Source: Branchiostoma floridae
Lineage: Eukaryota; Chordata; Leptocardii; Amphioxiformes; Branchiostomatidae
Reading direction: 5' to 3'
DNA: 64,000 nucleotides
Assembly (NCBI RefSeq): GCF_000003815.2
Contig: NC_049987.1
Location: forward strand, 16,820,564 to 16,884,563
The position numbers were made by a program, and so were the translations under genes. Below the pieces are notes generated by a model that had not been told where the DNA came from, made no database searches, and saw only the letters and a list, made by a program, of their open reading frames with translations. Below, in pieces: positions 20,467 to 42,950 of the stretch (its first letter is position 1; each line of letters opens with the position of its first letter).

Positions 20467-21403
20467 TTATAAGTATCTCTCCAGCTCGAGAACATCGATC
20501 TCGTCGTAGGGACTGTACGGTCTTCCCGAACCGCTCTGCTTGGGGCCGTGCCTCTCCGCATTCACGGGAACAAAGTGGGCACTGGGGTCAAAGTCTCTGA
20601 GAATGCTCTTGGCAATCTGAGGCAGCTGCATGGAATCGTGGATGGAGTACGGATCGTCGATCTGGTCACAGAACGGTGCCAGATTTTGCAGGGACCAGGA
20701 GAAGTGATCGTTCGTCGGTTGGAACTCTTCGGCGGGCGGCATCAGGACCGACGACTGCCACCACGACGAGTCAAACCCGGGGTGCACCTGAACGTCATTC
20801 TGGTGCGGAGCAGAAAACTCACAATCCAAGGTGGTCTCCTTCTTGAGGTTCATAGAAAAGTTTGGCATGTCCGTTTTGCTGAAGGTGGCGAAGGCTGGGA
20901 GCTTGTTCTGGAACTCCTCGTGAGACATAACGTTGTCAATCATCAACGGCTTCTTGTTGTAGTGATCTTCGTAGAAGTTGTACTCGTTGTGTTGTTGCTG
21001 TGGTACGTCATTGTTGAAGAACGGAGAATCACAGTGGGACAGGGTGGGAGAGTTGGAGCGAGAGGCGTAGTCATCGGATGTGCCGCTTGTCGAGCTGGGG
21101 TACTCTATCGTGGTCTCGACTTCGGGGGGTGGGGAGGGGTACATGGTGTAGGGCATGGGAGATTGTGTCGACGAGGAAGGCAGCGAGACGGCTTCGTCTC
21201 TTCGTGGGATGGTTTTGCTGGGACGAACCGACTTGGTTGGTCGCTTGCCCGGGTGCTTGCGCTTGTAGTGGGCAGTCATGTTGGCCTTGCACGGTGTGGC
21301 GTAGTCGCACTCGGTACAGAAGATGGGCTGCTCGCCGGTGTGCTTCCAGCGATGGGCGACCAGGTCTCGCGAAAAGTTCCCGACAAAGTCACACTGGTTA
21401 CAC
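20467..21403 (-). CDS. Zinc-finger gene, last coding exon (fingers 3-4 and C-terminal region)
   Basis: Starts one base into a Lys codon and encodes CNQCDFVGNFSRDLVAHRWK and FCTECDYATPCKANMTAH. It then has a basic stretch (KRPTKSVRPSK), a Ser/Pro/Thr-rich region and an acidic, aromatic C terminus. GC content is clearly higher than in the flanking introns, as expected for coding sequence. The opposite-strand frame at 20548-21438 is a GC shadow. Confidence 0.92.
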
Positions 21404-24400
21404 CTTCAGAAACACAGAACAATGGGGGATACGGTTAGATTCATGAATACGAAATAAAGAGTATTGCAATGTACTAGGTATCACACCACCAATTTGTAGG
21501 CGACCACAATCATTACGACTTCTTGAGTTAACCTTTGTATTGTAGCTGAGCCATCTTGTCAGGTGAATGAACCTTTAACATTGTGATAGGGGTCACCCAT
21601 TCATTATCATGCATCTATCTGTCACTTTCCGACAGGTAACATTTAACTGGGTGTAACCCCCCATACATGTATTGGTAACCTCCCTTTACTTTAGCGACCA
21701 TGTTGCCTTTCAAAAGTACTACTAGTAATAGTTTGTTTGTCGTTTTACACATGCACAATCGGAAAAAAAGTCTATTTTGCCTACAACTATTGTGTTTATT
21801 TGAGTGGTTGGGTAAATGATCGATTTAACACTCCTGCCTGTAAAGTTTTGGGCAATTTGGCAGGCATAGCACACGCACATGCCCAACAACCAACAATTTT
21901 GAAACACTCTGAATTAAGTGATGTGCTTTTTCCGAACTTTTCATCATTGCTGCCGAGATATTTAACAAGTGTTTGTGTTTGGCAGGTGGAAGAATTCAGC
22001 CCCAGGTCTTGGGAGATAATTACCCTCCCCATCTTCTGTTTCCAGCACACGGCCGCCAGTATTTTTGCATAATTGTGCAGAATGGCAGCCCTTCTGACAC
22101 CTGGCAGCCTCAGGCCATGCACATGTGCGCAATCATGAGGGAAACCTTTGTTGACAGAAAAAAAAGTTGCTGGGCAGAGTTGTTGTGTGAAACAACCACC
22201 GCGAGTAATTCGAAAAAGCCGAGCCAGTCCCTTTAAATGGAATCCTTTTTAACAAAGTTTTGTTCAACTTCAAAATGCTTGTTTTTGCTTCTGTCAATCA
22301 AAATATTCTAAGTGTCAATCGAAACATTCTAAGCTGTCAGGAAAGTAGTAATTATTGGGGGGGAAATGATCGAATTTCCTCAGTTGAGTTTGAAGTGTAT
22401 ATTTAAAGGCAGGTCAGTTGACATCTAAGTAGCTTTATGCATAATGACCTCAAGAGCTCATTATGTATGTCTTTATCAATGGCACTTTGCTAAACATCTT
22501 TGGGGGGGTGGGGCGAACTTTCTGATATCTTGCCAACATGAGACATTGACTCACTGTAAGAAATCTACAAAACAGTGTGACTCCACCCAAACCTAAAGCA
22601 CTCCAAAACCAACCCCCTCCCCATACATGATAAGTTTAAACACCATCTAAGGATACTTACTTGTAGGGTTTGTACTCGGGGTGTTTTTTGCGCATGTGGG
22701 AAGCCAGATGACCCTTGCTGGAGCCAGTGTACTTGCACATGGTGCACTTGTGAGGTCTCTCGCCCGTGTGAGTCCGCTGGTGTTCCATAAGGTGGCCCTT
22801 ATGGGTGGTGTCATAATCACACTGCTCACACCTATATAAAGGAGAATACATACAATTATCAGTAACGTTGTGACCTGTTGTTACCTAACCAATCTTGTAA
22901 TTTAAAGTCTTCAGTGCATTGACCCTACTGCCATTACTATTAAGAGGCTACACAGAGGAAAAGCAATGTTGTTGACTTGGACGTTCTGAGAGAAACTAGA
23001 ATTATACTTTTATGAACCCCTCCCAATCTGTTATTTGCGCATCAAAACCTACATTCAAAAATTCTACATTTTAAAAATGACTCGAAAAGAAGTTTTCAAA
23101 AGTTGAAGAATGTATATATTGCATTATGTTGCACAATGGATGTTGCAAATAAAGTGCGATAAAAAGACGCTTACCTGTACACCGGGCGGACCTTGCCATT
23201 CCCTCGGGCCATCTTGCCACTTGCGCCCAGCGAACTCCGTACAGCAGCCGGCATGTTGGTCTCGTTCTTCCGATGGTTCAAGCCTAAAAAGCAACCGCAC
23301 AAAAACATGGTCACACATCAACTCTGGTTTTTAACAAACACCTTGCAACATTTTCAACAGCAACGTTGTGTAATGTTGCGCGATTAAATCTCGAATGCCC
23401 CCAGCTGTAATTTTGATGCAATACCAGAAACATGCATTGGACAAATATTTCGAACAAGGACAGAGCGAAAAAAAGCATCGTACATGCTGCAAGTATGAGG
23501 TCTCGTGTCTTGTGAGACCTCCGTCTCCGCGTTCTGAACATGGTGTAAAACGCACTGGAAGGAAAAATCCCGGGTCAATCCGTAGATTTGCAGGACATAA
23601 CTACACACAGCAGTCCGCTCTTGTGCCAGAAGTATGGGTGGTGTCATTAACTCTTCCCGACGTACGTATGGGGTTATAAGGCACGCCTTTGGGGTTCAAT
23701 TCAACTACAGGTCGCTAACTCTTCAGCAAGCACCCTCCCTTTTAATACGCTCTTTTCTTTAGATTCTTAAGGTTTGAAATTTACCTGGCCACAGTAGTAG
23801 AGTGAAGAGATAGCTAAGGAAGATTATGTTCTGTCGAGACAATGTTGATGGAGAGAGCCATGTTTCTGAGTACCAACTCCTTCCCGTCCTGACGCCTGCC
23901 ACCTACCCCGTCATTTGTTCGACCATGCTTGCCGTGTGCGCTTCGACCGCCTCAGGGCTTTGAAACGCGCCATTCCATTTTCACAGGGGTAGATACCTTG
24001 TACAAACCATTTTTTTTTAATACTATGCAGAAGTAACAAATACATTTTTTTACATCCTAAAGGTTGGTAGTGAATAATAAATGTTGTTATTTTACTCCGA
24101 ATGTGCATCAACTTTTTCAGGAAAGTGTTACATGTCTTGAACACTTGTAAAATCTACCCTAGGATGAGTACATTTTTGGTGAATGGTATCGCCCAAACTT
24201 ATTTCACACCTGTTTGACATGATGGTAGCACCTGGTTAGGGTGAACCCTTGCTGACCGAGTTCGCTACATATGATTCACACTTTTAGGCGTTTCCCCAAA
24301 TCTTTTACAAGTTCCTTTGACATTTTAAAACTCACCGGAAACCATTGAGTCAGCGCGACCAACTCAGACCCCACCTAACAACCAAATCTCGGCCCCACCC

Positions 24401-26858
24401 CCCGCTAGACTTTCTGACTTCTTTGTCCACCCAAAAGAATGCACGGTGTAACATTCAAAAATTTTTGCTTCCGGCGATCGATACAATTATACGCTGAAAC
24501 GGGTACCTGTTAGCCTATATGGACGCATGCTTGTCCTAAAAAATCATTGCTTGTTACTGTGTGAAAACTTTTGTGTTCGCTTGTTTTTCTTTGCACTACA
24601 TTGTATTTTGTACATAGCACATCTTTTAAGTCCAAATGCGTTAGCTAAGATAGAAACAACTTAGCATGGAATGCGTACTGGGTCAACTTTTGTTTGCCAG
24701 TGATTAACATACTTATTAAAATTCCCCAAACAACTTGTTCTGTGTTTGAATGTTTGTACATATTTCCTAACTTCCTTTCCCAAAACAAAGTAAAAAATTT
24801 CTCTACTTGTGGACACCCTTGTTCGGGTTAGTCGAATTTTCATTGGTCTTGGAGAATGATCCGTTTATTGTTCTATAGCCAACCAGAGCTGAGTTTAAAC
24901 TACATGCAAAATGTGATCATTTCGTCCTGACAAAAGAGCACATGCCGCCGCAACATTAGCGTAACTATGCCTACAGCCGAGATAGGGCATACTATCGCCT
25001 GATCTAATCTCCCATTCTTGTAGCGTTGGGAATATTTTTTGTTCAAGTTTTGCGGGACACAGTAGTTTACATGTCTCCTGATAAGCAATGGAAAGATATT
25101 CCTTTGTGTGATGAATCCCAAGCAATTGAGTGAAGTTTTTTTTCTTTCATAATGTGCGCCTTCCAGACACCAAAAGTTCTATTTCTGATTGAATTTCATT
25201 TTTTTGTGATAATTTGTGATCAGTCAGCAAAATATACATGGATTTGTTACTATTGAGCAGTGTGTAAAACAATAGATATCTGGTTTAAGATACAAAGTTT
25301 CTAAGCCAATGGCTTCGCCAAAATTCTCCTTGGAATCAAATTTTAGCTTGTAGAATTCGTATTTTTTGACTGCGATTCAATTTTCAGATATTTTCATTTT
25401 TCACACCCGTAAACATTTTTTATTGCTGCACCTGTAGCGGCCAGTCCAGGGTTCAGGTAACAGGTACAATGTAAGACTAGATAAGATTATTTGCATTTGA
25501 AGAAGCTACTGTGCCATTGAAATTCCAATTGCTCATCAAGTCATCAAGAAGTGATAATATATGCGATATGCAAATAGGTGTGAATCACAGGTAGGTTATT
25601 CTGATGCTAATTTATGACCAGATAGGCTTCGTATTGTATGGCAAGTTTGGATTATGGAAATATCTGGAGCGCAAAGTGGTCGAACAGGTGGCAAGATGTT
25701 TTTTCCTGCCATGTTTTTTCTTATTCAAGTTAACCACAGAGCCAAACAAATTATGAGGAAAAACATCACTGTACGTGCAAAATCTTGATATCAAATTTTG
25801 GTATAAATCACGATACATTGATACAATGTTGAGTGTTTTTACAAGAAAGCTCGATTTAAAAAGTTTACAGAGTGTTCAATAGAAGCCAAAACGTCGCTCG
25901 AGCGAAGCCAATACTGGTTGGGATATTTGAAATACTTGCTCTAGTTAAAGAAAGAACACCGTCAGGTTGATATCTTTGTTAAAATACCTCCACACCACAT
26001 TTACATTCTTGAAGTGAACTTTGGAGCAAGTAGTATCGCCAGATGTTTGAAAAATAGGCATTATCTTCGAAGTATTTGTAGTTTCAGCAAACTGTTGCAA
26101 ATCGCTTGGATGGCATTTATCAATTCTTTCAAATCAATTGACAAACTCTGTCAAGAAATGTAAGTTCAACATTTTTTTCTACGATAAGACAAAACTATTT
26201 AGTTTCGCTTCGACGTTTGAAACAAAACAACGGAGGAGCTACTTGGAAAACGAACAGGTGTTCGGGGGAAAACATCATCCCTAAATAATAGCACAGGTAA
26301 AGCCTAAAATCTCGGTTACTAAACATTTTCTTTTAGCCTAAAACAAAGCAAGATATTGCATTGGGGAGGATTTGGAAGATAAGTATCGGCTCATTTGAGT
26401 TGGTTCTCTTCAGTTTGAGAAAGTTTCCACAGAAGCCAATAATCCTGAAAATCCTCGTTGGATTACGACGGATAACCAACTCATTTTGATAACCATTCTC
26501 CGACGACTTTCCATAACAAGTTTTTCTCCAAATCCCATTCGTAACTAGTTTGGACTAAATCCCTCCAAACAAAGGTTTTCACACAGAAGATCTCCGTTTT
26601 AAGTGAGAAAAACACACGCTGAATAAAGTTTCCTCAGTTTGCCATGTGGGGCAAAAAAATAAGAAAATCAGGTCGCCACGCGTTACTTAACACGTGGAAA
26701 AAATTCAAGGACACGAAAAGGAATCATGAAACTTACCTTTCTCAGTAGATAAAACCGGAGAGTTGCTTCCGTGGGTCAGCTAGGCGTGGTCACTGACTAC
26801 TGCAGGTGGGAGAGTGCTGGGAGATGTCCACTCGCGGTCCGAATCGTGGCTGGAGTGA
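20467..26858 (-). CDS. C2H2 zinc-finger transcription factor (four fingers)
   Basis: Nuclear DNA-binding protein; exact family not recognised. Exons on the minus strand: non-coding exon about 26858-26737, then 23283-23175 (ATG at 23254), 22831-22661 and 21403-20467 (TAA). Joined, it gives 395 residues. The fingers are residues 28-48 (C28,C31,H44,H48), 56-77 (C56,C59,H72,H77), 85-105 (C85,C88,H101,H105) and 113-134 (C113,C116,H129,H134). Their linkers are TGERPHK, PEYKPYK and TGEQPIF. Residues 135-395 are low-complexity, Ser/Pro-rich, then acidic, and end in DEIDVLELERYL; an activation role is possible. All junctions are GT-AG and in phase. The CxxCDY style resembles REST- or hunchback-like fingers, but I would not name it. 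If exon 1 splices directly to the 23283 exon, an in-frame TAG precedes the ATG, which supports this start. Confidence 0.88.
22661..22831 (-). CDS. Zinc-finger gene, middle coding exon (fingers 1-2)
   Basis: Encodes CEQCDYDTTHKGHLMEHQRT and CTMCKYTGSSKGHLASHMRK with the linker TGERPHK between them. The acceptor is TATATAG and the donor GTAAGT. It ends two bases into Lys84. Confidence 0.93.
23175..23283 (-). CDS. Zinc-finger gene, first coding exon
   Basis: The ATG at 23254 (context AACATGC) opens MPAAVRSSLGASGKMARGNG, followed by KVRPVY and the split Arg codon. The acceptor is TTTTTAG and the donor GTAAGC. Bases 23255-23283 are 5' UTR. Confidence 0.85.
23284..26736 (-). other. First intron of the zinc-finger gene
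   Basis: 3.45 kb, AT-rich, with no coding sequence I can support. It contains one GGTCTC hairpin (23498-23520) of a type repeated upstream of the gene. Otherwise I see nothing notable; conserved enhancers could lie here but cannot be told from one sequence. Confidence 0.5.
26737..26858 (-). promoter_or_regulatory. Non-coding first exon of the zinc-finger gene
   Basis: Ends in GAGAAAG followed by a strong GTAAGT donor at 26736. The frame continuous with the next exon contains TAG, so this exon is 5' UTR. Its 5' end is placed about 30 bases after the TATA box and is approximate. Confidence 0.65.
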
Positions 26859-26883
26859 GACTGACCCACAGTGGACAGGTGGG

Positions 26884-26891
26884 TTTTTATA
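26884..26891 (-). promoter_or_regulatory. TATA box of the zinc-finger gene
   Basis: Reads TATAAAAA in GGTATAAAAACCC on the minus strand, about 150 bases before the exon 1 donor. A TATA promoter suggests a regulated rather than housekeeping gene. Confidence 0.65.
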
Positions 26892-27659
26892 CCTGCCCTG
26901 TCAGGTAGATGAATAGCCGAAGAAGAATAGGACTGAAAAGTGGTCCAGTCGGTCTGGCGCCGACAGCGCTTTTGATTCTGACCCCCCTCTAGAGCAACTC
27001 ATTTGCATATGCAAAGCATGTATGTTTTTCGCCCAAAAAGTGGTTCGGGGATAATTTGTAAGGAAATTTGCTATAATTTGCCTCGACTTCCACTTTTCGC
27101 ATAAGTGGTCGTCATCTTGTAATTGAAAATTGAAAATTCAACAGATGAATATTCACTCTGTCACCATAGCTATTTTGCGCTATCTCATCACGGTGTGATA
27201 ATACCATAGTTTCTATGTTCACACGTTCTTTGAAAGTTTCGCATATATTCGTCCATTCGGAAACACGTACATGACGTTTACGTTTTGATGCAAATGGAAA
27301 AAGTAAAAAGAAAGTCATTGCTAAAATTCTAACTAAGAAGACACACATATGTATCAATTCCACACATTTTGGATTACTATCGATATCATTATTGTGACCC
27401 CATATGGTATTCGATTCTCTGTTTTTCCCCAAGAGATATACAAGAAAGTTGTGACATTTTTCATTGTGGGCCAATGTGGAAATGTCATGCTATACTCATA
27501 AACTACTTGGGCTATCTTTCTAGACGGATATGTCATATACATTTTATGATAAGCATTGTAACTTTACTTTTCATAGCTCGGTTAGCGAATTTACGAAAAT
27601 AAACTATATAAATCCTATATCATTCTCCGCAACTCAAAGAAAATAACATACAAATATTT

Positions 27660-28070
27660 AATGCTAAAACATTTTGTTTGAATTCTGTGTCCCTGTAGAC
27701 ACATAACTTTACTTTACTAGTATTTTTGATGTCCAGATTCGTTGCTGTGGTGGATTTTCATGACAATGTCATTCCTGCTCGTACGTATGGTAGTAACATT
27801 TTGTTTAAATTTTGTGTCACTGTAGACACATAACTTTACTTTACTAGTATTTTTCAAGTCCTGACTCGCTAAGTTGTTGTTTTTACTTGGCTGTGGTGAA
27901 TTTTCATGACAATGTAATTCCTAATAACATTTTGTTTAAATTTTGTGTCACTGTAGACACATACTAGTAACTTTACTTTACTAGTATTTTTCAAGTCCTG
28001 ACTCGTTAGATTGTTGTTTTTACTTGGCTGTGGAGGATTTTCATGACAATGTGATTCCTGTGCGTACGGT
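27660..28070 (+). repeat. Tandem repeat with TGTGTC...GACACA hairpin (three copies)
   Basis: Three copies, spaced 127 and 131 bp, share AACATTTTGTTTAAATTTTG, the hairpin and ACTTTACTTTACTAGTATTT. The hairpins are at 27686-27703, 27813-27830 and 27944-27961, each a perfect 6 bp stem. One loop differs (CCTGTA against ACTGTA) while the stems are unchanged. Confidence 0.85.
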
Positions 28071-28259
28071 AGTGTGTTGTAAATATGACGGCATTGTTCC
28101 CAGGCTTCCCATTGTTCTATCATTGACACCGATGCTGCCCCGCGTCCCCTGAGAACAAACTGTTTGTTCCTTACCTGCGTGGGAACACACCTGTCCTCTC
28201 ACTTCGTTAAACTTCCATACCAGATCAAAAAAAGAACAAGGAATAGTACATGCCTTCAA

Positions 28260-28292
28260 GTATGAGGTCTCACATCTTATGAGACCTCATAC
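28260..28292. repeat. Perfect 13 bp inverted repeat (GTATGAGGTCTCA)
   Basis: GTATGAGGTCTCA and its reverse complement are separated by 7 bases. A shorter version with the same left flank (TACATGC...AAGTATGAGGTCTC) is at 23498-23520 in the zinc-finger gene intron, so it belongs to a small repeat family. Confidence 0.8.
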
Positions 28293-29149
28293 CACAATTA
28301 CCAACCTAGGATTGATGTGTTCGAAAATTCGTATTTTCCCAGAACTATCGTAAAGTGGACTTTGTTATCACCAAGTACAGTAGGGATATCTTCTCTGGAT
28401 AGTTTTAAAGAACGCTTGCAGATAGATGTGTAAAAGTTAGGTGTGACGGGTCCTTCGGTGTAATTTAACTAGCTGCTGCCGCGCCGCGTGCCTGCGAAGC
28501 TGATGTGTTATAGATGTAAAATGTACTTAAAAAACGACAACCTCAAACGCGTTGCATACCCACATTTGTAAAGTTCGAATGCAACAGCATTTCTAAGATA
28601 ATGCTTTCTCTTTTCTATGATCTATGTTTACTTTTTCTCAATTCTAGGCAAAATTGACAAATACATATGTGTACACTATACTAATAGTTACACAAATAAT
28701 CATCCATGTGCGGTTGAAGCTACATTCCTTCGCACATGTACAGCGGATGCATACAATTGCTCAACTTAAAGTGGACTACCCTAGGAAAGTATTTCTATAT
28801 CTGTGTCTTCCTATACTCCAGTTTTGCTAAAAAAAATCTCGACTCTGGTCATAGGAACACTGACATAGCCACAAAACTCGTAAAGCAAAAAAATCGTTAA
28901 AGGAGAAAGTAATCGTTCAAGCAAAAAAACTACCAACTCAAAACGATTGTGGATCAAATTTCAATGTGTTTTATTTTCATATGCGTGAGCGATTCAAAAT
29001 TTATGAACATCCTCTCAACTATTGCTCATAAAAACAACATTTTTCGTGTAAAACCACAACGTTCGTTACACGGCAGAGTTTTATTTTTTATATTTCCAAA
29101 CCAGTAGAAAAAATACCAGTAAAAAGTATTATAGCAGGTCTTAGGCTAT

Positions 29150-29317
29150 TCATTTTTGGGGTCACTGACCGCTACAATCCTTGGCCCTTTAAACATACCA
29201 GTTACTTCTTGCGTTGCACATTGCTCCGAGTAGTTTTGTTCCGAACCAGTAGCAAGATGACCAGCGAGAAGTTTAATAATAGATCTTCGGCTATTCATCG
29301 TTGGGGTCACTGACCCA
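29150..29317 (+). repeat. Repeat pair with GGGTCACTGACC palindrome
   Basis: Two copies 146 bp apart share GGTCTTAGGCTATTCAT-like flanks, the palindrome (29157-29170 and 29302-29317) and a CCTTGGC 3' block. A third palindrome, GGGGTCACCGACCCC, is at 37367-37382. Confidence 0.75.
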
Positions 29318-29767
29318 CACTATCCTTGGCTTTTGAAGATACTATTTACCTCTTTAAAGTACGTATGTACCTAAAAATATACAAGTTTTGATTGTCCTGC
29401 GTATAAAACGATATCTGATTGGCGATTTATATATATTTCATTCTGTAGAGAACTACATTAAGTGAGAAATGTTGGTCTTTTTTTGTCAGGTATTTTAGAA
29501 CTTTTGTTTTTCTCTCGAGGTGGGGTAATTACTTTGCTTCGGGTGATAATTATAGGCGCCGGATCTCCCCCTCTCCTGACCCACTTCATCATTCCTGTCA
29601 CTTCAGAAGAACCTCAAATAAACACGAACTCACTAAACCTCATCGCTATCTATTTTGTAACTCCAGTATGTCTTCGAATCTTTCTACAATGTATGATAAA
29701 TCCGATAAAAATTGGACGTAGAACGTAACACTGAAAGAGTTATGTTTTTCTTGCATATTCATCATTT

Positions 29768-30025
29768 ATGTGTGTGTGTGTTTTGTGTGTGTGTGTGTGT
29801 TTGTTTGTGTGTGTGTTTGTGTGCGTGCAGTTGTATGTGCCTGTGTTTGCATGTGTTTGTGTGTGTGTGTGCGTGCGTGCGCACGCGCGTGTTTGTGTGT
29901 GTATAGGTGTGCATGTGTGTGTAAATCAGTGTGCGTGTATATGTGTATGTGTGCGTATGTAGTTAGTGTGTTTGTGTGTGTGTGTTTGTGTATGTAATTT
30001 GTCTGTGTGTAAGTGTTTGTATGTG
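29768..30025 (+). repeat. (TG)n-rich microsatellite
   Basis: About 260 bp of TG and TGTGTT/TGCG variants. The long Cys/Val and His/Thr frames across it on both strands are artefacts. Confidence 0.95.
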
Positions 30026-31129
30026 TATACACAATCTTTCATTGTCATCTTAGCCATATTTCTGCTATGGGAATCAAGATTTGATCCCAAAAGTGAGGTA
30101 ATTTTGCTAGCGGCTTGGGAGGGTAGTTTTCTACGGATGTTTTGTGGTGAGTCAGAGTTTAGGAGAGACGGGTATCCTCCCTGTCCTGCAGCCACTGCTG
30201 ACATTAACCCCAGGCGACGATTAACCCCTCACCCACTCCGTCCTCTGACACGCCCCCTAACCCACTAACACTACAACTATCGTAGTTTGCTAGTCGAGAC
30301 TTCTGTAACTATACATGAATTTTCATCACAAGATCTTTTGGTACGTTTGTCTATACCTAAAGAGATAGAGCAAATAGTTTACGATTTGGGTAGAAATCTC
30401 GTGTAATGTATAGGTGAAGTTTGCATGGTGATAGTGTTAGGTCGTACTCTTTATCCAAATATTACGTTTCTTTCTCTCTCTCAACAGTGACGTACAAATG
30501 CAATATTTATCTGTAACCTCAGTTTAGTGTTAGCGCTTCTGCTTGCTTATTTTCAACTAAGAAACAAACAAATAAACAATCAGAAAAGATCACACCAAAA
30601 GTGCTGATATCTGACCGCTCATAACCCCAAAAGCGTGTGACTGATATTTGTTGGTGTTTCCCTGAATTGCAAAATAGACATTTCTCACTTCGAGATCCCC
30701 ACCAACAAACGAAAATATTATGTTGAATAAACACAACGTACATAGATATAGATATATGATATGACTGAAGTTGATAATCTTTATAAACAGACATTTGATA
30801 AAGGTAACAGAATGTCTATAAAACCTTGCCCCACTTGGACGTACTATTTTTGGCACGTTCGTGCAACCATACACTTTGAGTTCGACAAACTTTAAGTGGG
30901 ACGACTCGAAGAAGACGTGTCATAAAAAATACAAATTTTTATATCAATTTGTATAGGTCAACGTTCGACTGCACCACGCTGATAGCTTATTTTCTTACAG
31001 TACATAAAGTTTAAGATTAACAAGTGGTGAAGTGAAGTACGAACATAGTGTGTTCTTTGTCGTGCGTTCTTGATAGTTACCAAGTCGATATGTACAAATA
31101 GACAGACAGAGAAACATAGCTGACATAAA

Positions 31130-31480
31130 CTAGTAGAGAGAAAGAAAGAGAAAGATAGATAGATAGATTGATACATGAATGGATAGATATATGGACAGAG
31201 AAATAGATGGATAGAGGCATGGATAGATGGATAGATATATAGATTAATAGAATATGGGTTGGATAGATAGATATATACTTGACATATACATGTATAGACG
31301 CATGTACGTAGACAGACTGATAACATTAGATAGATAGAAAGATAGATAGATAGATAGATAGACAGATCGATCGATCGATAGATGGATAGATAGACTAATA
31401 GACAGATAGGTAGATAGATAGATAGATAGACAAGCAGACAGACAGACGTATAGAAAGATAGATGGATCTTATATCTCGAT
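31130..31480 (+). repeat. (GATA)n microsatellite
   Basis: Imperfect GATA/GACA/GATG tetranucleotide tract of about 350 bp. The 201-residue minus-strand frame across it (Ile/Tyr/Leu-Ser repeats) is a repeat artefact. Confidence 0.95.
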
Positions 31481-31539
31481 ATACTGTACGCTTCCAAATC
31501 TAGATAACTATGCATTTTACTTTGCGTGAAACCACGATT

Positions 31540-32055
31540 TCTAGTTGTGGTCACTGCGGTCAATGGCCTTTTTCTGAAACCCGAAGTGAGTCACCTGTCC
31601 AAAGGGGCAGACGTGGTCAGACACGTGCCTCACTGTCCTCTAGCATATTTGTTACATCATATGGTCACGTTTGTGTTTTTTCAACCCGTGATTTTGATTT
31701 GTAGTCACTGCGGTCAATGACCTAAGTAAGAACTGTCAGTCGGTCACAGAGTGTTAAAACATGCTACACTCCCATTAACTTCTACCCAATTACATTTTCC
31801 AACTCTTGATCATATTATCATATACATGGTAGAGTTATAAAACAGCAATTTTTATTTGTAGAATGTAGTCACTGCGGTCAACGACCTTGGAACTGTCAGA
31901 CGGTCACAGAGTGTTGAAACATGCTCCACTCTTATTAACGAGTACCCAATGACATTTTACAACTGTTAATCATATCATCATATTGCATGGTAGAGTTATG
32001 AAACAGCAATTTTGATTGGTAGTTTTGGTAGTTACTGCGGCCAGTGACCCTTTAG
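31540..32055 (+). repeat. Tandem repeat with GTCACTGCGGTCAATGACC core (four copies)
   Basis: Cores are at 31544-31568, 31700-31723, 31863-31886 and 32028-32050 (spacing 156, 163 and 165). Copies 2 and 3 also share ACTGTCAG(A/T)CGGTCACAGA and a long 3' part. The core pairs GGTCA or GTCA with TGACC. Confidence 0.85.
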
Positions 32056-33559
32056 TTCTTCTGCCATACCAAATTAGTCATATAGCCAAAGGGTCTTGAA
32101 AAATTATCCCACGTGTGTTTTGGAATTTTACAACTGTGTATTCGTAGCCACATAGATATTCACAGGTATAGCTAATTCAATAGGTAGATTTTCAGTCAAG
32201 TCGTGTATTATTTAAAAATCCAAAGGCTTTTTGGTTATTGTTTAGCTATAACTTATAAGGTTTTAATTCATGGTTTCAGATATCTGTGTACCTTTTCTTT
32301 TAACATTTCAAGTCGCAACAATGTATGCTGCATTATAAGCAAATATTATTATTTTAAACCAAGTATACCACCTAGTAACGTTACCTGTGTTGTTGAAATA
32401 TTTCAGTATTAGCATAGCTTCTTTTCCAAAAGGCTTAAGTTTCGTAACTGCCATAAACCAGTCATAAAGTTGCTTGAAGTCGTTATTTTCATCTTAAAGC
32501 TTAAGTGGGTGGCCTTTGAATGAACCGCTTTTTATGTTTTATTTCGCTAATTATACAAATATGAACAGATTTCCATATCACAACTCGTCAGCAGGTAGCT
32601 ATGGGTTCTGCACAGAGGTAATGCCTTGAGGGAGTGGAGATAGTGTAAAGATAACCCTACACAATACCGGGTTTTCACTTGAAAAGCGCCGCGAAACCAC
32701 CGCCTCAGGGTATACTTACCGGCACTGGGTAATGGTTCACGAGAAGAATGGGGAAAATTCTCCGTACATTCATCAACAAGGAATTCGGTGTGTGAAACTA
32801 GGCTAAACATGTGTTGGCTGTATACCATGAGTTTTAGACTTATAATAAATTGAACGTTGGTAGTGTTCTTCTGTATGTTGAATAGCGATGTAAATGCGTA
32901 AAAATAAGTCAGACGGAAGGAAAACTTCACTAAAGAGCTATCAAATTTTTCTTTGTTATGCCCTCTTCAAGATTCCTTTAGTCTGGAGTCAAAGCTAACT
33001 ACTGTGTTAACGTTACACCTGCAGCAAATTTGAACACGGCATGTACAAACTTTTCTTCGTATGTTTTTAAGTACTATATAGAATCAGGGGGTGGACTTAA
33101 GTGTGTAAAAGGCTTTCCCACTCTTAATATATTATTTCACTTCAGTTTTGAGCCTCCTTGCTTCTATCTGCGCTCTGTTTTTGACTGAGTATAGAAGGAC
33201 AGAAACATGCATCAAAATTTTGCAGTGGTAAACACGGTGACACTTGTTTCGTATTTTGATTTGCAATGGAAATGCCTGCAATTTCTGCACCTTACCAATT
33301 AACAAAGGGCTGTTTGACACCGCCTATATAATTGTTGGCCCAATTTCTCCCTTGATAATTGTGTGATACGAATCAAGAATTCATGAAGAGGGTAATTTCT
33401 TTAGATTGGGGGAGGGAGGGGGGCAGACCCCCGGAACGGCGCCTCAGGCGAGGCTTTGACCAATTCAATACAACCTGTTAAGTGAGCGGTGCTCAATTTT
33501 CTCTATTGTACAAGTTCATCTTAGTGGCACGTGACAAATTTGCAACCTGTTAACAGCAA

Positions 33560-34560
33560 AATGTTGTCTTCGCAGACGACATATCAACACACGATTTTCC
33601 CGCCTCCTGTGTTTCTCATTCACGGTCACTTACACAGACGTTTTATGAGGTAAAAAAAGGCAGGAATAACACTTGTAACACTTGTGGTCTATTGCAGACG
33701 ACATCCTGACAGAATTAATTTTCTTGCTTTCTTTTTTGTCATTTTTGGTCAAAATACGGAGTACAGTTTTGTTGGGTAGAAAAAGAGGTGGGGAAGGAAA
33801 TTGTTACACCTGTAGTCTTCTTCAGACAAGAACCTTTTTTCTCATTTGTGTCATTGTGTCAATAACGTAATGTGCAAAAGTATGCACTTTCTGACAGAAA
33901 CTTCTCCTGAGAACTGGGTAGAAAAAGGCGGGAAAAGAATGTTGTTGTCTTCCTCAGACGATATCACAACATGACGTTTCCAAAGGTGGTTTCCATGTGT
34001 CTAGGATTGCTCTAACTTTCCCGCCTCCCGTATTTGTCACTCATGGTCACCTACAGAGTCTTTTTGTGAGGTAAAAAAAGCGCCAACAGAACTTGTTACA
34101 AATGTTGTCTTAGCGAGACGACGTCCCAGTGCGATACTAAACCATCATTAGCTCCTTATTCAAAGCACACCACTGTTGTATCTGGCTACATTTTACATCT
34201 GATAACTGTTATTCATTCTAAAATGCACAACTATTAAAATCTCTATTTAGGAATGTCACACGGTATAAATTGTATATACGTTTACAAACTAGACTTAGAA
34301 CTTTCTGGTTTTCGTCTAACAAACTTATGGGTTTTATACAAATTCATCAGTTTAAGGGGAATTATAATGGAATGTAGACGTTGTAGTCTGCCCTAGACAA
34401 CCTCAAAGCATTAACTTCTTTTCGTATGAAGTTCTTTGTTTTTAATTTTCGGTTGTCTGTTATGTCTTAAAACACAGCGGGACCACTGAGAATTTTTTGT
34501 TGGGAAATTTATCTGAAAGGAAGAGGTTTAGATATTATTGTCTTGTCGAGACGATATCCA
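33560..34560 (+). repeat. Dense array of TGTTGTCT...AGACGACA hairpin units (seven copies)
   Basis: Hairpins are at 33562-33581, 33683-33703, 33811-33831, 33943-33963, 34103-34123, 34381-34402 and 34536-34556. The units also share a GGTAAAAAAAGGC-like block and a TTGTTACA block before the hairpin, spaced about 120-280 bp. Loops are 4-5 bases and variable; stems are kept with G-T pairs or paired changes. Confidence 0.85.
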
Positions 34561-36339
34561 AGTGCTAAATTAAACTATGGGTTTATCAATTGAACTTACG
34601 GTCACTTAAAAAGTGTACATAGCGGCAAATTACAATATTTGGTTTTGTTGTTTTATCATTAGGACATTTCTACGCTAATCTAACATATATTAAAGACAAA
34701 CTGACAAATAACAATATTCGGGAGGTGAAAAAATGCAATTTTCCATTGCTATACGTCCCCTCCTTTTCGTTTGAAGAACTTCGGCTGATAACGGTTTACT
34801 GTGTTATGTAGTCTTAAATTATCGCCCCTAACCTTTTGCCGAATTGTCTCTTAATATGTACCCACACTCACGTGCAACTAGTACTGGAGTTTTATGATAT
34901 CTATCTCCAGACAACGTTTAGTGCAGACTGATCTCTCTTATCAATTGCAACGTAACGTTGTATGTGCAACATCGTCAAAATCGTAAGAAATAGCGAATTG
35001 GATTGGTGCATGTAAAACTAGACTGTGTCGTATTTCCAGTCTTCTTAAGAAAAGTGCTATATGTTCTCGTATCTTGATAGCCGGTATAATGTAATTTTAC
35101 TAGCCATTAATGATTATTGACACAAGAAGTCTATGATTTAAATGATTTAAGACACTATCTCCTTTATTTAAAAGTCCTACGTCCTAATTTTTCAGGTCGT
35201 TTTATCTTCTTTAAAATCTTTTCACAATGACTGAAGAACAGGTCTTGCAAAAATAGCAATATAGCCTATGTCTATCGGTTGGACAAGAGAACTCTTCATT
35301 CATTTATTGTTAAGTATCTGGTACGGTATTTTCACCTTAAAAAGACGCCTTTTTTAAACTTTCTACCTGGCCCCTGGCAGTTTCCTGAAACCGCGTTGTC
35401 TTGACGAATTTTTAGGGCGTGAAAATGTTGTCTTCAACTTTTTCTCACTTTGTTCAAGACAATTCTTCAAAACATTTCATTAGCACCCAAACGTTAATGG
35501 TTTACAACTATCATTTAATTGTAGCAAAAAGAAAACAAAACGCAAACGTTTATTTATTTCCATATAAACTTTTTTGAAAAATTTTAAAAAACTGAAAGTA
35601 TTTTAGTCCTGGCCACAAACGACAAGAAACTTATTTGTTCGAATGTGTGTGTGTTCATTCATTATGGCAGTGTGGAAATGGTATAGTTAATATAGCGTTG
35701 CCTTTCTTTTAATCCATGCTACTATTCGGTTTAAAATCAATCCAGCACTTTGAAATCAGACTACTAGTATTTTATGCGTGTGTGTGTGTGTGTTGTGGGG
35801 GGGGGGGCGTGCGTGAACACAAACCCGTAAGAAAATGAAACAAAAGAAGAAGAAGAAGCCAGCGTTTGTTGTCTTGTCACCACCTTGACGTCTTTCTCAT
35901 TCAAGTGCAGGTAATTGATCTCATTAGCTTTTGCCTCGGGGTTATAGTCAGCAAAGCTAACAAACCATTCACCGCACAACGGTTATCGCTATGGGGGTTA
36001 CAATAACGGCTTTGTGGGTTTGAATGGAACCTGTCGGGTGACTCCCATTGTCATGGTGTGGGTGGGGCGGGGGTGACACAAACTCAAGTTGTCTTACCGA
36101 GACAGGCGTCTCGCAGGAAACTTCTTTAAACTTCAAGACTACTTCGCAGAAAAAAAAACATTAACTCAACTATAGAATAGAATTGTACGCCGGAAAAATA
36201 ATTATTTTTGATCAATATTCATGACAATTTAATTATTTTAGCGGAAGATACATTGTAGTGAGTCGATATAGTTCTCTGTGGCATATTACTTCCAGTCAAT
36301 TCCGTAAAATTAGATCATGTGCATATAAATGCCAAGGAT

Positions 36340-36355
36340 ATATATATATATATAT

Positions 36356-36409
<54 letters not shown>
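36340..36409 (+). repeat. (TA)n microsatellite
   Basis: About 70 bp of nearly pure TA, with one TACATACA interruption. Confidence 0.97.
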
Positions 36410-36410
<1 letters not shown>

Positions 36411-36809
36411 AAAAGAAGATCAGATTGAATTCGATTGTAACAAATGCTTGCAAATTTAGGAAATAACCACCTAACAGGAAATGGCTGCAAAAGGATGATT
36501 TTAAGAAATTGTAACATTTCTTAGCAGAATACTTTTACTAATCTCTGAGAGCACAGATTTGCAAAGGAACTGGCTTTTGCAATGCTAAACACTGTAGAAA
36601 AAAAAATAGATAAAAAAATTTCAAATAGCGTGCTTTCATGACTATCAAATGACAATTGAAATGACTTTCCAAGGTGATTCCCTACGCTGACCATGGCGCC
36701 ATTAGTTTTGAACATTTAGAAAAAGAAATAGATAAAAATATTGACCGAGTTTGCAAATTCCGCAGCAAAATAAAGGTTTCTTTATTTTTAATTCCTTCCT
36801 CAATCACAA

Positions 36810-37055
36810 AAACGATCATTAAATGTGTTGTTTCCCTTACTGTGGCCCAGGCGCCATCGCCCAAGGAGGTCCCGTCCAGTGAATGGGAGTTGCCAGCCGG
36901 GTTGGATGCTGCTCCTCCCCGCTATTCTCCCACAAGTTCACCTGGTGGGCTCACACAGGTGAGAAGATGAACCTGTCACAAACAGGTGTTGTCTGAGCGA
37001 GACAGGTGCACAGAGGGTCGTCAGGTGACGTCTGGGGTTGTACCTTTGCATAAAC
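36810..37055 (+). repeat. Duplicated ~230 bp sequence, copy 1
   Basis: Starts near AACGATCATTAAATGTGTTG and runs through CCCAGGCGCCATCGCC, CCGCTATTCTCCC and a CAGGTG-rich hairpin segment. Copies 2 and 3 are at 39153-39560 and 41205-41330. An open frame of 30-40 codons spans it, but I see no start or splice context. Confidence 0.85.
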
Positions 37056-37449
37056 GTTAAAAAGGTACACGGCCCGACCTATTCTAAAGATTGAGCTATT
37101 CTAAAGCTTGTCAATTTGACAAACAAGTCAATAGTCAATTTTGCACCTGTGAGCTTTTTCACTACAAAGTCTATCATGCAACATTCTTTTTTACCGTATT
37201 CTTCTACAAACTATGACATGAAACTTAAAGCCACGTGTACAACTATATAATATCATGAGAAGAAACGTTTTGTGAACTCAAAATGCTCAAATTCTTGCTA
37301 ACCAACCATGCAGATTTTCTTTAGATAAACCTAATAAGAGGCATAATTATAGCCATTATCTGAGCATGGGGTCACCGACCCCAAGAGATTGATGAGACCC
37401 CATCGTAATTACTCTCGCCCCCCCCCCCCTAAATGTGTTACGGGTACCT

Positions 37450-37715
37450 ACAGAGTTTCAGGCAGGTGCGAGAAAAGTTCGTTATAAACTTCTACATTTG
37501 AAACAGACAGAGATATCAGTCTCACGTATCCATCCATATAAAAAAAGAAATCTGGAATAGGAAATGTTTTATACTGTAATCAAACCTAGATCTTTGATCT
37601 GTAATCAAACCTAGGGCCATATAGTGCGTTTATAGTTTCAAACAGGTGCGAAGAAAGTGCGTTATGAACTTGTATATATGAGCCAGACAGAGGTCTCCGT
37701 CTCACACATCCATTC
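37450..37715 (+). repeat. Tandem repeat with AGAC...GTCT hairpin (two copies)
   Basis: Two copies 180 bp apart share GTTTCA(G/A)GCAGGTGCGA-like, GTTAT(A/G)AACTT and GTCTCAC(G/A)(T/C)ATCCAT blocks. The inverted GACAGAG...GTCT pairs are at 37505-37522 and 37685-37702. Here the arms are in the opposite order from the TTGTCT class. Confidence 0.7.
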
Positions 37716-39152
37716 TCCCTGCTAAAAAATACAAGGAAATCTACCATAGGAGTGACGAGAAGCTGTTGTAATTACAGTATTGAGAAATTGCAAAACTGTC
37801 ACACGGTTGGTGGAAGTTAGAATTGCAAAATGGAGTCATCAGGGTCGTTAGTCTTAATTTATGACCCTCAAAAATGTCGTTGGACGGCAACCAATGTGTG
37901 ATTTCTGTTCCAAACGTACCAAATGTGCCCCTAAGGACTCTGTGTGTCAACATTTCACTTACCATGATACTAGACAGAAACAGATTCTACACAATAATAG
38001 TACATGATTGTATGATGATCTCCAAGCAGATGTAAAGATACGACTTATTTTCATTTTTGTGTGTAACTTAGCACTTTTTCAAGAAGCGATTCGCCTATTT
38101 AACGATTAGAATAATTATCATGAGCTTTGAAAAGGGCGACTGCTTGTAGCTGTAGGAGGGAAACAGATAGTTAAAAAGAGCAATAATAGAAAAGAGTAGT
38201 AAATATTACAAAAGCAGACGTAAACACTCAGAATAATCTTTGAATGCTTCTTTTATATCTGTCTAAAGTTTACACTTGTAAAGCCTTCATTGACACCAGA
38301 AAAGTAGAAAGACTTTTATAGAATTTACAACAACTATACATATAAACAAATAAGTGTATTCAAATGAATTAACTACATCTATGTACGACATATATGTATG
38401 CTGGTTGCATAGCTGCCCCTACGGCCGGTGAGGCTATGGGACCGGTGAGCTGTGAGGTGAGGTGTACGACAAGGCAACTTGACCCTAGCTCGTAAATCTT
38501 ACTCCCAAATGTAAACGCCTGTTGCGTGCATGTAACAACATACACGGAGCGCGTGCAGTGGTTTTCACGCCTCTCCGACGCCTTTGTAATTCAAGTCCAC
38601 CGATCAATCTCATTATCTCATGCCTCGGGCCTTTAGTCATTAAACCAACAAACCATCTGTGTAAAGAAAGACACATTCAGGTCCTAACAATGGTGAATCA
38701 CAATGTGCCATTGTCAGGTGTGTACACCCGCAGTGAACCGTACCTGTGGGCAGGGCGTGTCAAAAACAAGAGTTGTCTTAACCAGACACTGGTCTCGCGA
38801 CCAAGGACTTGACTTTTGTTCTAACTGCTGAGTCAAATTTCATTTCTTCACGAGTTCTAGGTGTATACTACGTAAGAAAGCTAGTACTGATGTGCCATTT
38901 TGGTAGCATTTACCAGGACTTTGGCCAACTAAGGAATAAAAGCATAGTATGAGTTAATTGGCCTAGGAGTGTTGGCCAGCCTGGAAACTATACTTCTGGG
39001 GCGTGTTTTCTTTCTGTCTTATTTGGCCAATTTTTACTTTTTCTCCAGCGACCTGTGGAGCCTGGTAGAGGCTACCATTTTGGCTGGAAAAGGACAAAAA
39101 TGACTTGACTTATGTGTTTCGGAGATATTTTGAATTTTTTCTCCAATTACTA

Positions 39153-39560
39153 AAACGATCATTAAATGTACGTCGATGAAGGTTATCAATCCAGGTCATA
39201 AGATACACCACAAAGCAGTTACTGAAGCAACTGGATATGATTTTGGAAATGGTCAGACGTTTCAGATAGACGTTTCCAGTTGCTTGTCAATGAGTAACTG
39301 CTTTTTGGCGGTCATTTAATGTGTTGTTTCCCCTACTGTGGCCCAGGCGCCATCGCCCAAGGAGGTCCCGTCCAGTGAATGGGAGTTGCCAGCCGGGTTG
39401 GATGCTGCTCCTCCCCGCTATTCTCCCACAAGTTCACCTGGTGGGCTCACACAGGTGAGAAGATGAACCTGTCACAAACAGGTGTTGTCTGGGCGAGACA
39501 GGTGCACAGAGGGACGTCAGGTGATGTCTGGGGTTGTACCTTCGCGTAAACGTTAAAATC
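39153..39560 (+). repeat. Duplicated ~230 bp sequence, copy 2, interrupted by a MITE
   Basis: Nearly identical to copy 1 but split after GATCATTAAATG by the element at 39165-39315. The insertion therefore happened after the duplication. Confidence 0.85.
39165..39315. mobile_element. MITE with GTAGTTACT-type arms, copy 3
   Basis: AAGCAGTTACTGAAGCAACT faces AGTTGCTTGTCAATGAGTAA. It carries the GGTCAGACGTTTCA block seen at 17960. It interrupts the 39153-39560 duplicate. Confidence 0.8.
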
Positions 39561-41204
39561 TGGAATAAAAGTCTCTAAGTTTTTAATAGATTGCTTTTAT
39601 TGCATTCTTTTACCAATCTCTTTAATGTATTTGATAATTTTGGTGTCTAACCTTGTGTGTTACGTACTAGTAGTGATATCTATATAGATACAGATGCGGA
39701 AAAATGCTATTGTATGAACTTGTGAGTTTTTCTATATTTTGGCACACAGTTACAGGATGCCATAACGTTAAATTTGATAATTGTATGTCTGTTCTTGGCA
39801 AATATAACAGCACAAATGTGCAAAGAGATTATTTATTAGAATGTCAACATTATAAATGATTTATAACTTAGGTAAAAAAATCTCTTTACAAACAATGTGA
39901 TTTCATCCACACGATACTAGTAGTCAGCAATTGCTAATGAACCTTCTAAACACAGTCGAAGGTAATTAACCAAATTAGCTTCAATGACCACCATAAAATG
40001 TCGAACTGACCTCTCGGTGACATGGCGCCAAAGCCACAGGAGGGTTTTCAAACGACAGTACCTGTCCGGACCCGCCCCCCTCCCCACATTGTTCCTCCAC
40101 TGGTACCTGGTGTGTTCTACCCGGGTGGGGAAATCCTGTTACAAACTTGTGTGTCCAAACCAGACGTCACAGCAGTTAATCACCATCACAACGGCAAGAC
40201 AGGCAAAACAAACTACGTAATTATTAATAACACATTCTATCACATTCGTTCACTTTATTTCAAGCATAGAAACTTCTTTGCGAAACAAAGCAAGGAGCTT
40301 TTATCTCCTTGCTTTTGGACAAGAAAATATTTCCTTCGAAATATTCTGTTCTGAAAATTACAAAAAGGAAACAGCATTTACTTCAAAACATTCGTGTTTT
40401 GTTTTACTTGACACCTGACCGTGTCATACTTTTCCTAGTCTTCAAAATCAAAATAGTTTCTTAGATGAATATATTTGGTTAGACGTATGCGTGAATTTGT
40501 TATTCATGCAAAAATATGTCACTGACATTTCTCATAATCTTGTTTTTTTTTCTTGCTTAACAGTAACAAATCTAAGTTGTTGTCTCGTGCTTTTGTTGTT
40601 AAACTAACAAACGATCTGTGACTCGGTAGGGTTCATTGATCCTGAAGAGTTCCAGACTGTGTGTGTTGGCGGGTATGAATAGTACCTGTCCAACAGGTGT
40701 CATTATCAGGTGTGTCCGCCTGCCGCGTGGAGCACACGTGGACAGGGCGTTACATAATCTGTTGTTGTCCTCACCAGACGGTTCTCACTGGTGACCTTGG
40801 CTCAAAACAAAATGGCGTTGAACAAACAGACCCAATAGCCCTACTATCATTTGTTGGACATGTGGCCACTTTTTCATTGATTCAACAAACATAGCCACTC
40901 TCTCCATGATTCAGTAATGGAGTTTCACTCTCTCATTGGTCGAACTGCTAATTGCGATTCTCTCATTGGTCGAAATGATAATTACCATTCTGTCATTGGT
41001 TGAGCTGATAAATGTTATTTGACAGTCACGACGGGTCTGTCACTGTAGATGGAAAGAATTTCCATCAATTACCAAGACAAACAGCTCAGTCATGTCAGTT
41101 CCAATCCAAAACGATGCACTGCAAAAAAGATGATAAAAATTGTAAACATTTTCACAAAAATTACACATCTTGAAAACAGCAAAACAGACCGTCCAGCGGG
41201 AAAG

Positions 41205-41500
41205 GCCATTAAATATCTAGTTGTGGCCCCTACCGTGGCCCAGGCGCCATCGCCCAATGAGGTCCCGTCCAGTGAATGGGAGTTGCCAGCCGGGTTGGAT
41301 GCTGCTCCTCCCCGCTATTCTCCCTGTGTGTGTTGATGAGTTTGAATGGTACCTGTCCAACAGGTGTCATTATCAGGTGTGTCCGCCTGCCGCGTGGAGC
41401 ACACGTGGACAGGGCGTTACATAACCAGGTGTTGTCCTCACCAGACGGTTGTCTCACAGGTGACCTTGGGTCAAAACAAAATGGCGTTTATTAATAGACC
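41205..41500 (+). repeat. Duplicated sequence, copy 3, joined to a hairpin unit
   Basis: Shares the CCCAGGCGCCATCGCCCA to CCGCTATTCTCCC part with copies 1 and 2. It then continues as a copy of the 40.68-40.80 kb hairpin unit (CCTGTCCAACAGGTGTC to GGTGACCTTGG). This copy is a chimaera of two repeat types. Confidence 0.8.
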
Positions 41501-42950
41501 CATCCCAAAGCCCCGCGGGTTTTCAAGGAGGCATTATCAATGATGATGACTGCCTTTATTCTACATTCATGCCCTATCTGACTAACTACAGACACAATAA
41601 TGAAACCAGAACTGCATTGAATGTCACTTGAAGACAGAGGGAAAATGTCCAGACTTGGTATCACTAGACAAATATCTTAAGTGATGGAACTTTCCTATCA
41701 TTTGTCTAAAAGGAATATTTCTATCGTTAGTTAGCTGCTGTGTTACGCCGAACGGCGGTTATACCGGCTATATAGATACAGATACAGTTACTTATCAAAC
41801 CTTGCAGAATAACCCATATAAACAACGAGGTTTCAGAATCAATGCAATGCAATCCACAAGTTTCAGTCTTAATTTTGCCAAACCAGCTCAAATTTCGACT
41901 TTCAAATAAACCCTGTCAAAGTTGTTTTAAAAGTGTAAAATTGTATCTATGTTTGCATCATAAATATGTTTCCCTCACCACTAAATTTGATAGTTGTTTG
42001 TTTAGAAATATGGTTAGCAATTATAATGCGGTATATATATCTTATTTTGGTAGTTTAAAAGTCCAATATAGATTGACGTCGTCAGTCCGGTTAATGTTTT
42101 TCAAAACTCAACTGTTAGGGGGCGTAGATATTACTTTTGAAACTGAATACGTTTTGGTTTTTTGAACGATTGAAATTTTGAGTGTCATGCTGGATACAAT
42201 AGTTGCAATATCACGAACGGTCGCTGCATGAAAATGGCGCTCCTGCTCTTCCCTAAAAGTCAGGCTATCTGACTAGAACTGAGGGAAATGATTGCTGTCG
42301 GAGAAAATGGCAGACATTCATCTTACATTAGACGTTACCCGTGTTTATTTAGTGAGGTAATTGTAGCAGGTGACAATGAATTGTACGCTTGAAATGAAAA
42401 ACAGGGCATTGGATCAGTTCAATAATGTCTAGAGTAATCTCCGAGCGAAAGTTTGGTATGTCGATGTCAATCGCTCGAGGACAAAGCTGCCATGGAGCTA
42501 ACCATTTGGGAGAGCCACCTTGCGACTCAAAGGGGCATTGGTAAGACCCTTGATCTGTCAGTCTGTCACTTATCTTAAACATCAAATAATAAACTCGAGG
42601 GCCACAGTTAGCAAACGACAGTTATTTTAAAATTGATGATAGGAATTTCGATAGATGAGGACATAGATTGATCAAGTTCGTGAAAAATGTAGCACTATAA
42701 TGGTGTAAAACCGAAACTCAGGTAATATACGGATGGTAGGGAACTTAACAGTAGTCCTAGCACAAACCAGTAAAGAGGGGGCTAAGTACGATGAAATTAT
42801 TTTCCCGAAGCAAAACGCTAATGATAATGAATGAATGAAGACCTTTATTGTACATTTCTGCCCACTGTGCATATATTATATAATACAACAACACAAGGTA
42901 ACGTTGTGTTATACATGTATATAATTTCTTATTATGTCCTCAAACAAACT

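Follow-up and report, generated by a model that had tools for sequence, protein, structure and literature searches.

What preserves a short GTC- and AGAC-containing motif in many copies when the DNA around each copy has drifted beyond recognition? This question is raised by a window of 64,000 nt from the Branchiostoma floridae genome (NC_049987.1:16,820,564-16,884,563, + strand; genome of 513.4 Mb in 431 contigs), in which an initial annotation had reported five sets of diverged repeats between 27.66 and 41.5 kb, each built around a short inverted repeat. All five sets are present where they were reported, and we refer to them as F1 (TGTGTC, 27.66-28.06 kb), F2 (GGGTCA, 29.09-29.35 kb, with a lone site at 37.37 kb), F3 (GTCACTGCGGTCAATGACC, 31.54-32.05 kb), F4 (TGTTGTCT/AGACGACA, 33.56-41.45 kb) and F5 (AGAC/GTCT, 37.45-37.71 kb). 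Self-comparison and repeat finding make local tandem duplication evident in the region, and F4 is the only one of the five sets that is remarkable. The reading we favor, with a probability of roughly 0.55, is that F4 represents a local homotypic cluster of directional dyad protein-binding sites in upstream regulatory DNA.

F4 consists of 14 units, all in + orientation, comprising 10 copies of GTCT-N5-AGAC, one whose spacer has 4 bases (33,566) and three in which the left half reads GTCC (40,153, 40,767 and 41,434; Table 1). The annotated estimate of 14 or more copies between 33.56 and 41.45 kb, about 120-280 bp apart in the dense part, was therefore accurate: gaps measure 121-279 bp among the first seven units and 614-1,784 bp afterwards. 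GTC and AGAC are each invariant in 14/14 units, the fourth base varies between T (11 units) and C (three units), and the spacer is 5 bases long in 13/14 and ends in C or G in 13/14. The extended consensus approximates TGTTGTCYTNNCSAGACRR, about 20 bp in length, and in 11 of the 14 units a TNACA-like word is present in the 30 bases upstream.

Table 1. Positions of the F4 units, the other repeat sets and the zinc-finger gene within the 64,000-nt window
Feature	Position	Strand	Remarks
F4 unit, 4-base spacer	33562..33581	+	core 33566-33577
F4 unit	33683..33703	+	core 33687-33699
F4 unit	33811..33831	+	core 33815-33827
F4 unit	33943..33963	+	core 33947-33959
F4 unit	34103..34123	+	core 34107-34119; hidden Markov model (HMM) of six other units, E 0.00053
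F4 unit	34382..34402	+	core 34386-34398
F4 unit	34536..34556	+	core 34540-34552
F4 unit	36087..36107	+	core 36091-36103
F4 unit	36987..37007	+	core 36991-37003; within 250-bp duplicate 36813-37062
F4 unit	38771..38791	+	core 38775-38787
F4 unit	39483..39503	+	core 39487-39499; within recent duplicate 39309-39558, 97% to 36813-37062
F4 unit, GTCC	40149..40169	+	core 40153-40165
F4 unit, GTCC	40763..40783	+	core 40767-40779
F4 unit, GTCC	41430..41450	+	core 41434-41446; within duplicate 41324-41502, ~91% to 40657-40834
F1, three tandem copies	27664..28059	+	period ~137; TGTGTC...GACACA
F2, two diverged copies (77%)	29094..29354	+	GGTCACTGACC at 29160 and 29305
F3, four GTCACTGCGGTCAATGACC-like blocks	31540..32050	+	GGTCANTGACC-like at 31558, 31712, 31876, 32039
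Lone GGTCACCGACC	37370..37380		one mismatch from GGTCANTGACC
F5, 80-bp duplicate pair	37454..37713	+	37454-37533 / 37634-37713, 80% identical
C2H2 zinc-finger gene, coding part	20467..23283	-	ATG 23254-23252; splice sites by inspection
Putative promoter and first exon of zinc-finger gene	26737..26965	-	predicted from sequence only

The local density of this one motif is far beyond chance. Between 27,660 and 41,500, GTCT-N5-AGAC occurs 10 times, whereas 300 dinucleotide shuffles average 0.14 occurrences and never exceed 2, and when all spacings from 0 to 20 were compared, spacing 5 alone was enriched for GTCT/AGAC. A motif-blind k-mer scan, from which two recent duplicates had been removed, returned GTTGTCTT as the top 8-mer, with 8 occurrences against 0.35 expected and none of its reverse complement. 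As a control we used 22 genome loci of 10 kb each (20 loci and both window flanks, 220 kb in total). GTCT-N5-AGAC has seven copies with unlike flanks, versus at most five for the top-scoring 4-base fixed-spacing palindrome of any control locus, and T.GTCYN4SAGAC occurs 11 times on the + strand and once on the - strand of 33.5-41.5 kb, compared with a single occurrence on both strands of the control DNA. Some caution is called for by a block of ordinary minisatellites at 48-56 kb, where the palindrome score is also high if flanks are ignored (11.5 vs 13.4-14.1), and flank divergence therefore matters for this kind of scoring. Tandem Repeats Finder called no array for F4.

Resemblance among the units is concentrated in the core. 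When the 14 units are compared in all 91 pairs, identity across the 8 core bases is 95.5%, whereas the 60-bp right flanks agree at 0.569, versus 0.568 for shuffled regional DNA, and the left flanks slightly more often, at 0.595. Within this one genome the motif is thus better kept than its surroundings, as in a homotypic cluster, and as fourteen copies share the core while their flanks have lost resemblance, the motif could, if our reading holds, be read without a comparison species. An HMM built from six downstream units recovered the unit at 34,107, which lies outside the training set, and weakly found those at 33,947 (E 0.59) and 34,540 (E 11); its list lacks the four upstream units at 33,566, 33,687, 33,815 and 34,386.

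We propose that a longer unit may have been multiplied by local duplication, after which the flanks would have drifted while selection kept the two-part core. A dimeric or two-module protein would read GTC(T/C) and AGAC across the fixed 5-bp gap of double-stranded DNA, and the array would constitute an upstream regulatory block (enhancer, silencer or insulator) whose target would most simply be the zinc-finger gene on the - strand. Protein binding, target gene and sign of the effect are what we infer here, whereas the array itself, its fixed spacing, the decay of flanks around a retained core and the restriction of near copies to the window are direct observations. Palindromic protein-binding sites had been among the options listed originally, and they fit best with the invariant core, the fixed spacing and the duplicate pairs described below. 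In favor of the proposal we also count pairing changes that do not exceed those of shuffles and a 16-mer that only the putative zinc-finger promoter and F2 share in this genome. Several observations weigh against this proposal. The dyad is imperfect, with its left half better kept than its right. The same orientation in all units would be unusual for sites gathered individually and fits an RNA-level motif too, although tandem duplication alone suffices to produce it. The motif is not over-represented in the genome, where TTGTCTN5AGAC has 793+767 = 1,560 places versus 941+928 = 1,869 for the backwards control, and TGTTGTCYN4SAGAC has 65+48 = 113 versus 80+69 = 149. The 16-mer that the inferred zinc-finger promoter shares with the repeat region lies in F2 and not in F4, and the F4 units show no significant likeness to that promoter. 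Finally, the death-domain genes on the other side of the array are equally possible targets.

The uniform orientation speaks for the first of two main rivals, an unlikely one, namely that an unannotated long noncoding RNA (lncRNA) transcribed from the + strand carries F4 as a series of linear, unpaired docking motifs for a protein. The strand asymmetry of both T.GTCYN4SAGAC and GTTGTCTT points in the same direction. Tandem duplication by itself would yield the orientation, however, and a non-pairing RNA motif has no need of near-dyad symmetry. A composite view, to which we give a low but slightly better standing, is that F4 is either the recognition dyad of an undescribed protein or an lncRNA docking motif, and that the local array controls either the zinc-finger gene or the death-domain cluster.

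The second main rival is neutral descent: F4 could be the relic of an old tandem array whose copies were noticed only where the core was still recognizable. Plain local tandem duplication is in keeping with this explanation, and as the units had originally been found by their core, we masked all 14 cores and compared 33.3-41.7 kb with itself once more, accepting E values up to 0.05. Of the 12 duplicate pairs that this comparison returned, two have nothing to do with F4, namely F5 and a 30-bp minisatellite at 40.9 kb. In the pair 36,783/39,126 an insertion of ~140 bp (39,170-39,308) leaves the second copy without a core inside a 200-bp limit. By the same limit each of the remaining pairs carries a core in both copies (9/9), and in 6/9 the offsets agree to within 4 bp. 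Three older pairs, with flanks 78.8, 71.3 and 70.5% identical, retain 8, 8 and 7 of the 8 core bases, for which the joint chance is ~0.003 if the core evolved at the pace of the flanks, with the reservation that these few old pairs are not fully independent because two of the three include unit 38,775. Together with an invariant core amid flanks at random level, these pairs make neutral descent a distinctly unlikely account of F4.

We then consider the distribution of F4 in the genome. Searches with 36,813-37,062, 33,540-34,140 and 40,580-40,850 matched three, one and two places, respectively, all within the window. Such searches detect near copies only, given that the last query missed a related unit near 38.7 kb in the window itself, and strongly diverged copies elsewhere are for this reason possible. 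Six of the 65 forward places of TGTTGTCYN4SAGAC fall in the 8 kb of F4, and among the 100 of its 113 places that were listed no other two lie within 10 kb of each other. With near copies confined to the window and no over-representation of the motif, F4 is neither an ordinary dispersed near-copy repeat nor a motif favored genome-wide, and the array appears to be particular to this locus. The earlier suggestion of a dispersed, hairpin-mobilized element accordingly lost ground: for the three stretches, and at the level of near copies, there are no dispersed genome copies of the kind that a miniature inverted-repeat transposable element (MITE) or short interspersed element (SINE) family would leave. 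It is very unlikely that F4 is the remnant of a single mobile element in which transposase sites recurred internally or subterminally. A directional repeated motif in a single 8-kb block, a reverse-transcriptase stretch 2.7 kb beyond it (44,143-44,700) and the escape of strongly diverged copies from the searches would suit such an origin, but none of the three stretches has a near copy outside the window, four open reading frames (three of 101-114 codons inside the array and one before it) have no Pfam match at E up to 1, and self-comparison gave no repeat pair bordering the array.

The initial annotation had held that the stems keep pairing while the loops vary freely, and this did not withstand a covariation alignment of 21 columns and 13 distinct F4 rows. 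In this alignment 82.7% of cells pair versus 82.2% after shuffling. For each of five statistics on pairing and covariation, between 150 and 254 of 500 shuffles attain the observed value, and changes on both sides of a pair show no excess. The register of the dyad is real, since pairing falls to 35-52% when the partner is slid by 1-3 columns. GTC and AGAC are nevertheless invariant, a C at the fourth base leaves a C-A mismatch that is uncompensated in 3/14 units, the outer pairs decay, and the spacer, where free variation had been described, mostly keeps its length of 5 and its final C or G. As the core agrees amid random-like flanks and paired substitutions are not in excess, selection on F4 seems to act on the bases and not on their pairing. 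RNA folding covered 13/14 units, with 39,487 omitted because it is almost identical to 36,991. In 6/13 the minimum-energy fold contains the expected stem; one further unit (33,947) has this stem in the centroid alone, and the other six have it in neither. Unit 33,566 folds better than 199/200 shuffles (z -3.2). No Rfam family matches anywhere in the window at its gathering score, and a lax search of 27.6-41.6 kb yielded four matches below threshold; three fall on an AT run, the fourth is to SCARNA7 at 29,690-29,830 (24.6 bits vs a gathering score of 65), and no F4 unit is hit. A cluster of small structured RNAs with a stem under selection, for which the real register and the fold of 33,566 can be cited, is hardly credible given stems without compensatory substitutions, units without a common predicted fold and a window without an Rfam family. 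What stands of the original proposal is that something is kept in these repeats, with binding sites among the options; the paired stem and the RNA found no support. We also rejected splice acceptors, because AG is preceded by G or T in 6/14 units and GTC is fixed at a set distance that acceptors do not need.

If F4 is a cluster of protein-binding sites, its position with respect to the C2H2 zinc-finger gene deserves attention. The predicted exons of this gene span ~23,175-23,283 and 22,661-22,831, with a final coding stretch that ends at 20,467, and fingers are encoded near 22,681-22,836 and within the stretch 20,467-21,405 (- strand). The exon with the ATG (23,254) has an acceptor before it, and a promoter with a non-coding first exon probably lies near 26.86 kb, where a TATA element (GGTATAAAAACC, 26,882-26,893) is followed 29 bases on by an initiator-like TCAG (A at 26,862) and by a donor at 26,731-26,740. 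The F4 array would thus be located 6.7-14.6 kb upstream of this TATA promoter. A short way upstream of the TATA element lies a 16-mer, TCTTCGGCTATTCATC, that has exactly two places in the genome, 26,908-26,923 (-) and 29,284-29,299 (+) in F2; the second F2 copy matches it at 14/15 bases. Since no alignment between F2 and the inferred promoter extends outside the 16-mer, the two more probably have a site in common than a promoter that was copied. At 26,952-26,965, close to the promoter, GTC-GGCGCC-AGAC has the frame of F4 with another filling and a matrix score of 8.5, a weak likeness because 13 other non-unit places in the window reach 8.5 and some exceed it. The idea that F4 consists of decayed copies of the zinc-finger promoter, suggested by collinearity seen by eye, was discarded, as the six-unit HMM omits the promoter at E up to 50; likewise, in 28 pairwise comparisons (14 units in two senses) the lowest p was ~0.016 (33,687), which is at chance level. 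About 110 bp upstream of the putative TATA element there is also a palindromic TTTGCATATGCAAA (27,002-27,015), which we take to be an octamer-like POU site. On the far side of the array, three + strand coding stretches with Pfam Death matches (48,947-49,402, 55,197-55,691 and 60,720-61,628) form a tandem gene cluster.

Among the other sets, F1 and F5 amount to short tandem duplications of an ordinary kind. The palindrome had been described as the best-kept part of F1, but in the three copies the conservation of a neighboring TAACTTTACTTTACTAGTATTTTT stretch equals or surpasses that of the palindrome. The AGAC/GTCT set exists as a single duplicate pair. The view that the sets are unrelated fails for F2 and F3, which have the palindrome GGTCANTGACC in common. 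With up to one mismatch, GGTCANTGACC occurs seven times in 27,660-41,500, including three exact matches, where 200 mononucleotide shuffles give an expectation of 0.26. Several of the seven are related by duplication; further sites in the window lie at 26,788, in the putative first exon, and at 59,261. Genome-wide, GGTCANTGACC has 1,954 places versus 452 for the same letters read backwards, a 4.3-fold excess that may partly stem from repeats, and the window positions tied to it are 29,160, 29,305 and 31,712. A genome search with the F2 and F3 stretches returned only these stretches themselves. We take GGTCANTGACC in F2 and F3 to be the nuclear-receptor IR1 arrangement, with the same palindrome and one-base spacing; any receptor binding would concern these two sets, and the likeness is limited to them and does not extend to F4. 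The earlier hint at IR1 elements gains support from the genome-wide excess. A set of 10 NR1H receptors is reported for cephalochordates (PMC7827873), and the excess of GGTCANTGACC may be a separate hint concerning this expanded receptor group in amphioxus.

The window contains further features of note. The ~140-bp segment at 39,170-39,308, present in the 39.2-kb duplicate and missing from its 36.8-kb partner, has 16-bp inverted arms (39,208-39,223 and 39,293-39,308) and edges CATTAAATG and CATTTAATG, and has the appearance of a short foldback or MITE insertion. At 42,968-45,956, two direct repeats of ~0.92 kb, 85% identical, surround the Pfam RVT_1 stretch at 44,143-44,700 in what resembles a retroelement insertion. 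An inverted repeat, AAGTATGAGGTCTC...GAGACCTC, is found in two copies at 23,491-23,521 and 28,258-28,292, the second with a 13-bp arm, and a Fe/Mn superoxide dismutase N-terminal domain (Pfam Sod_Fe_N) at 5,982-6,338 adjoins an 80-bp minisatellite at 6,625-7,530.

How does F4 compare with known systems? The literature that we searched contains neither literal spellings of the F4 motif nor a title or abstract on such an array. The Drosophila Mad/Medea silencer element and the NFI palindrome were rejected since the arrangement of their half-sites differs. Minisatellite and satellite arrays share local tandem duplication with F4, but the spacing of F4 is irregular (121-1,784 bp) and its units are alike in the core alone, with unlike flanks. 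The Smad-binding element (GTCTAGAC or CAGAC) resembles F4 in that GTCT and AGAC half-sites face each other in both, as described in PMC11063908, and in F4 these half-sites are found in 11/14 (GTCT) and 14/14 (AGAC) units. In the Smad element the halves are adjacent, whereas those of F4 lie 5 bp apart in 13/14 units with extra conserved bases on both sides, an arrangement that is neither the adjacent palindrome nor the solitary half-site with a tolerant second position. The same source reports that a degenerate second GTCT position affects Smad3 binding modestly; F4 has an invariant second position and a variable fourth, the reverse of the Smad sites described there. The Smad resemblance pointed out at the outset thus holds for the half-sites and not for their pattern of variation, and Smad proteins are doubtful candidates for the F4 reader. 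The closest likeness is with the homotypic clusters of transcription factor sites in animal enhancers, where many copies of a short motif likewise occur within kilobases upstream, the core being kept and the surroundings free. F4 differs in that its copies all point the same way and owe their origin at least in part to local duplication, and in that its reader protein and its activity are putative. The locus is a testable cis-regulatory oddity and not a new kind of system. If our reading is true, it shows how local duplication can build a dense homotypic regulatory array, and it supplies a 20-bp bait with which the protein that reads F4 may be found.

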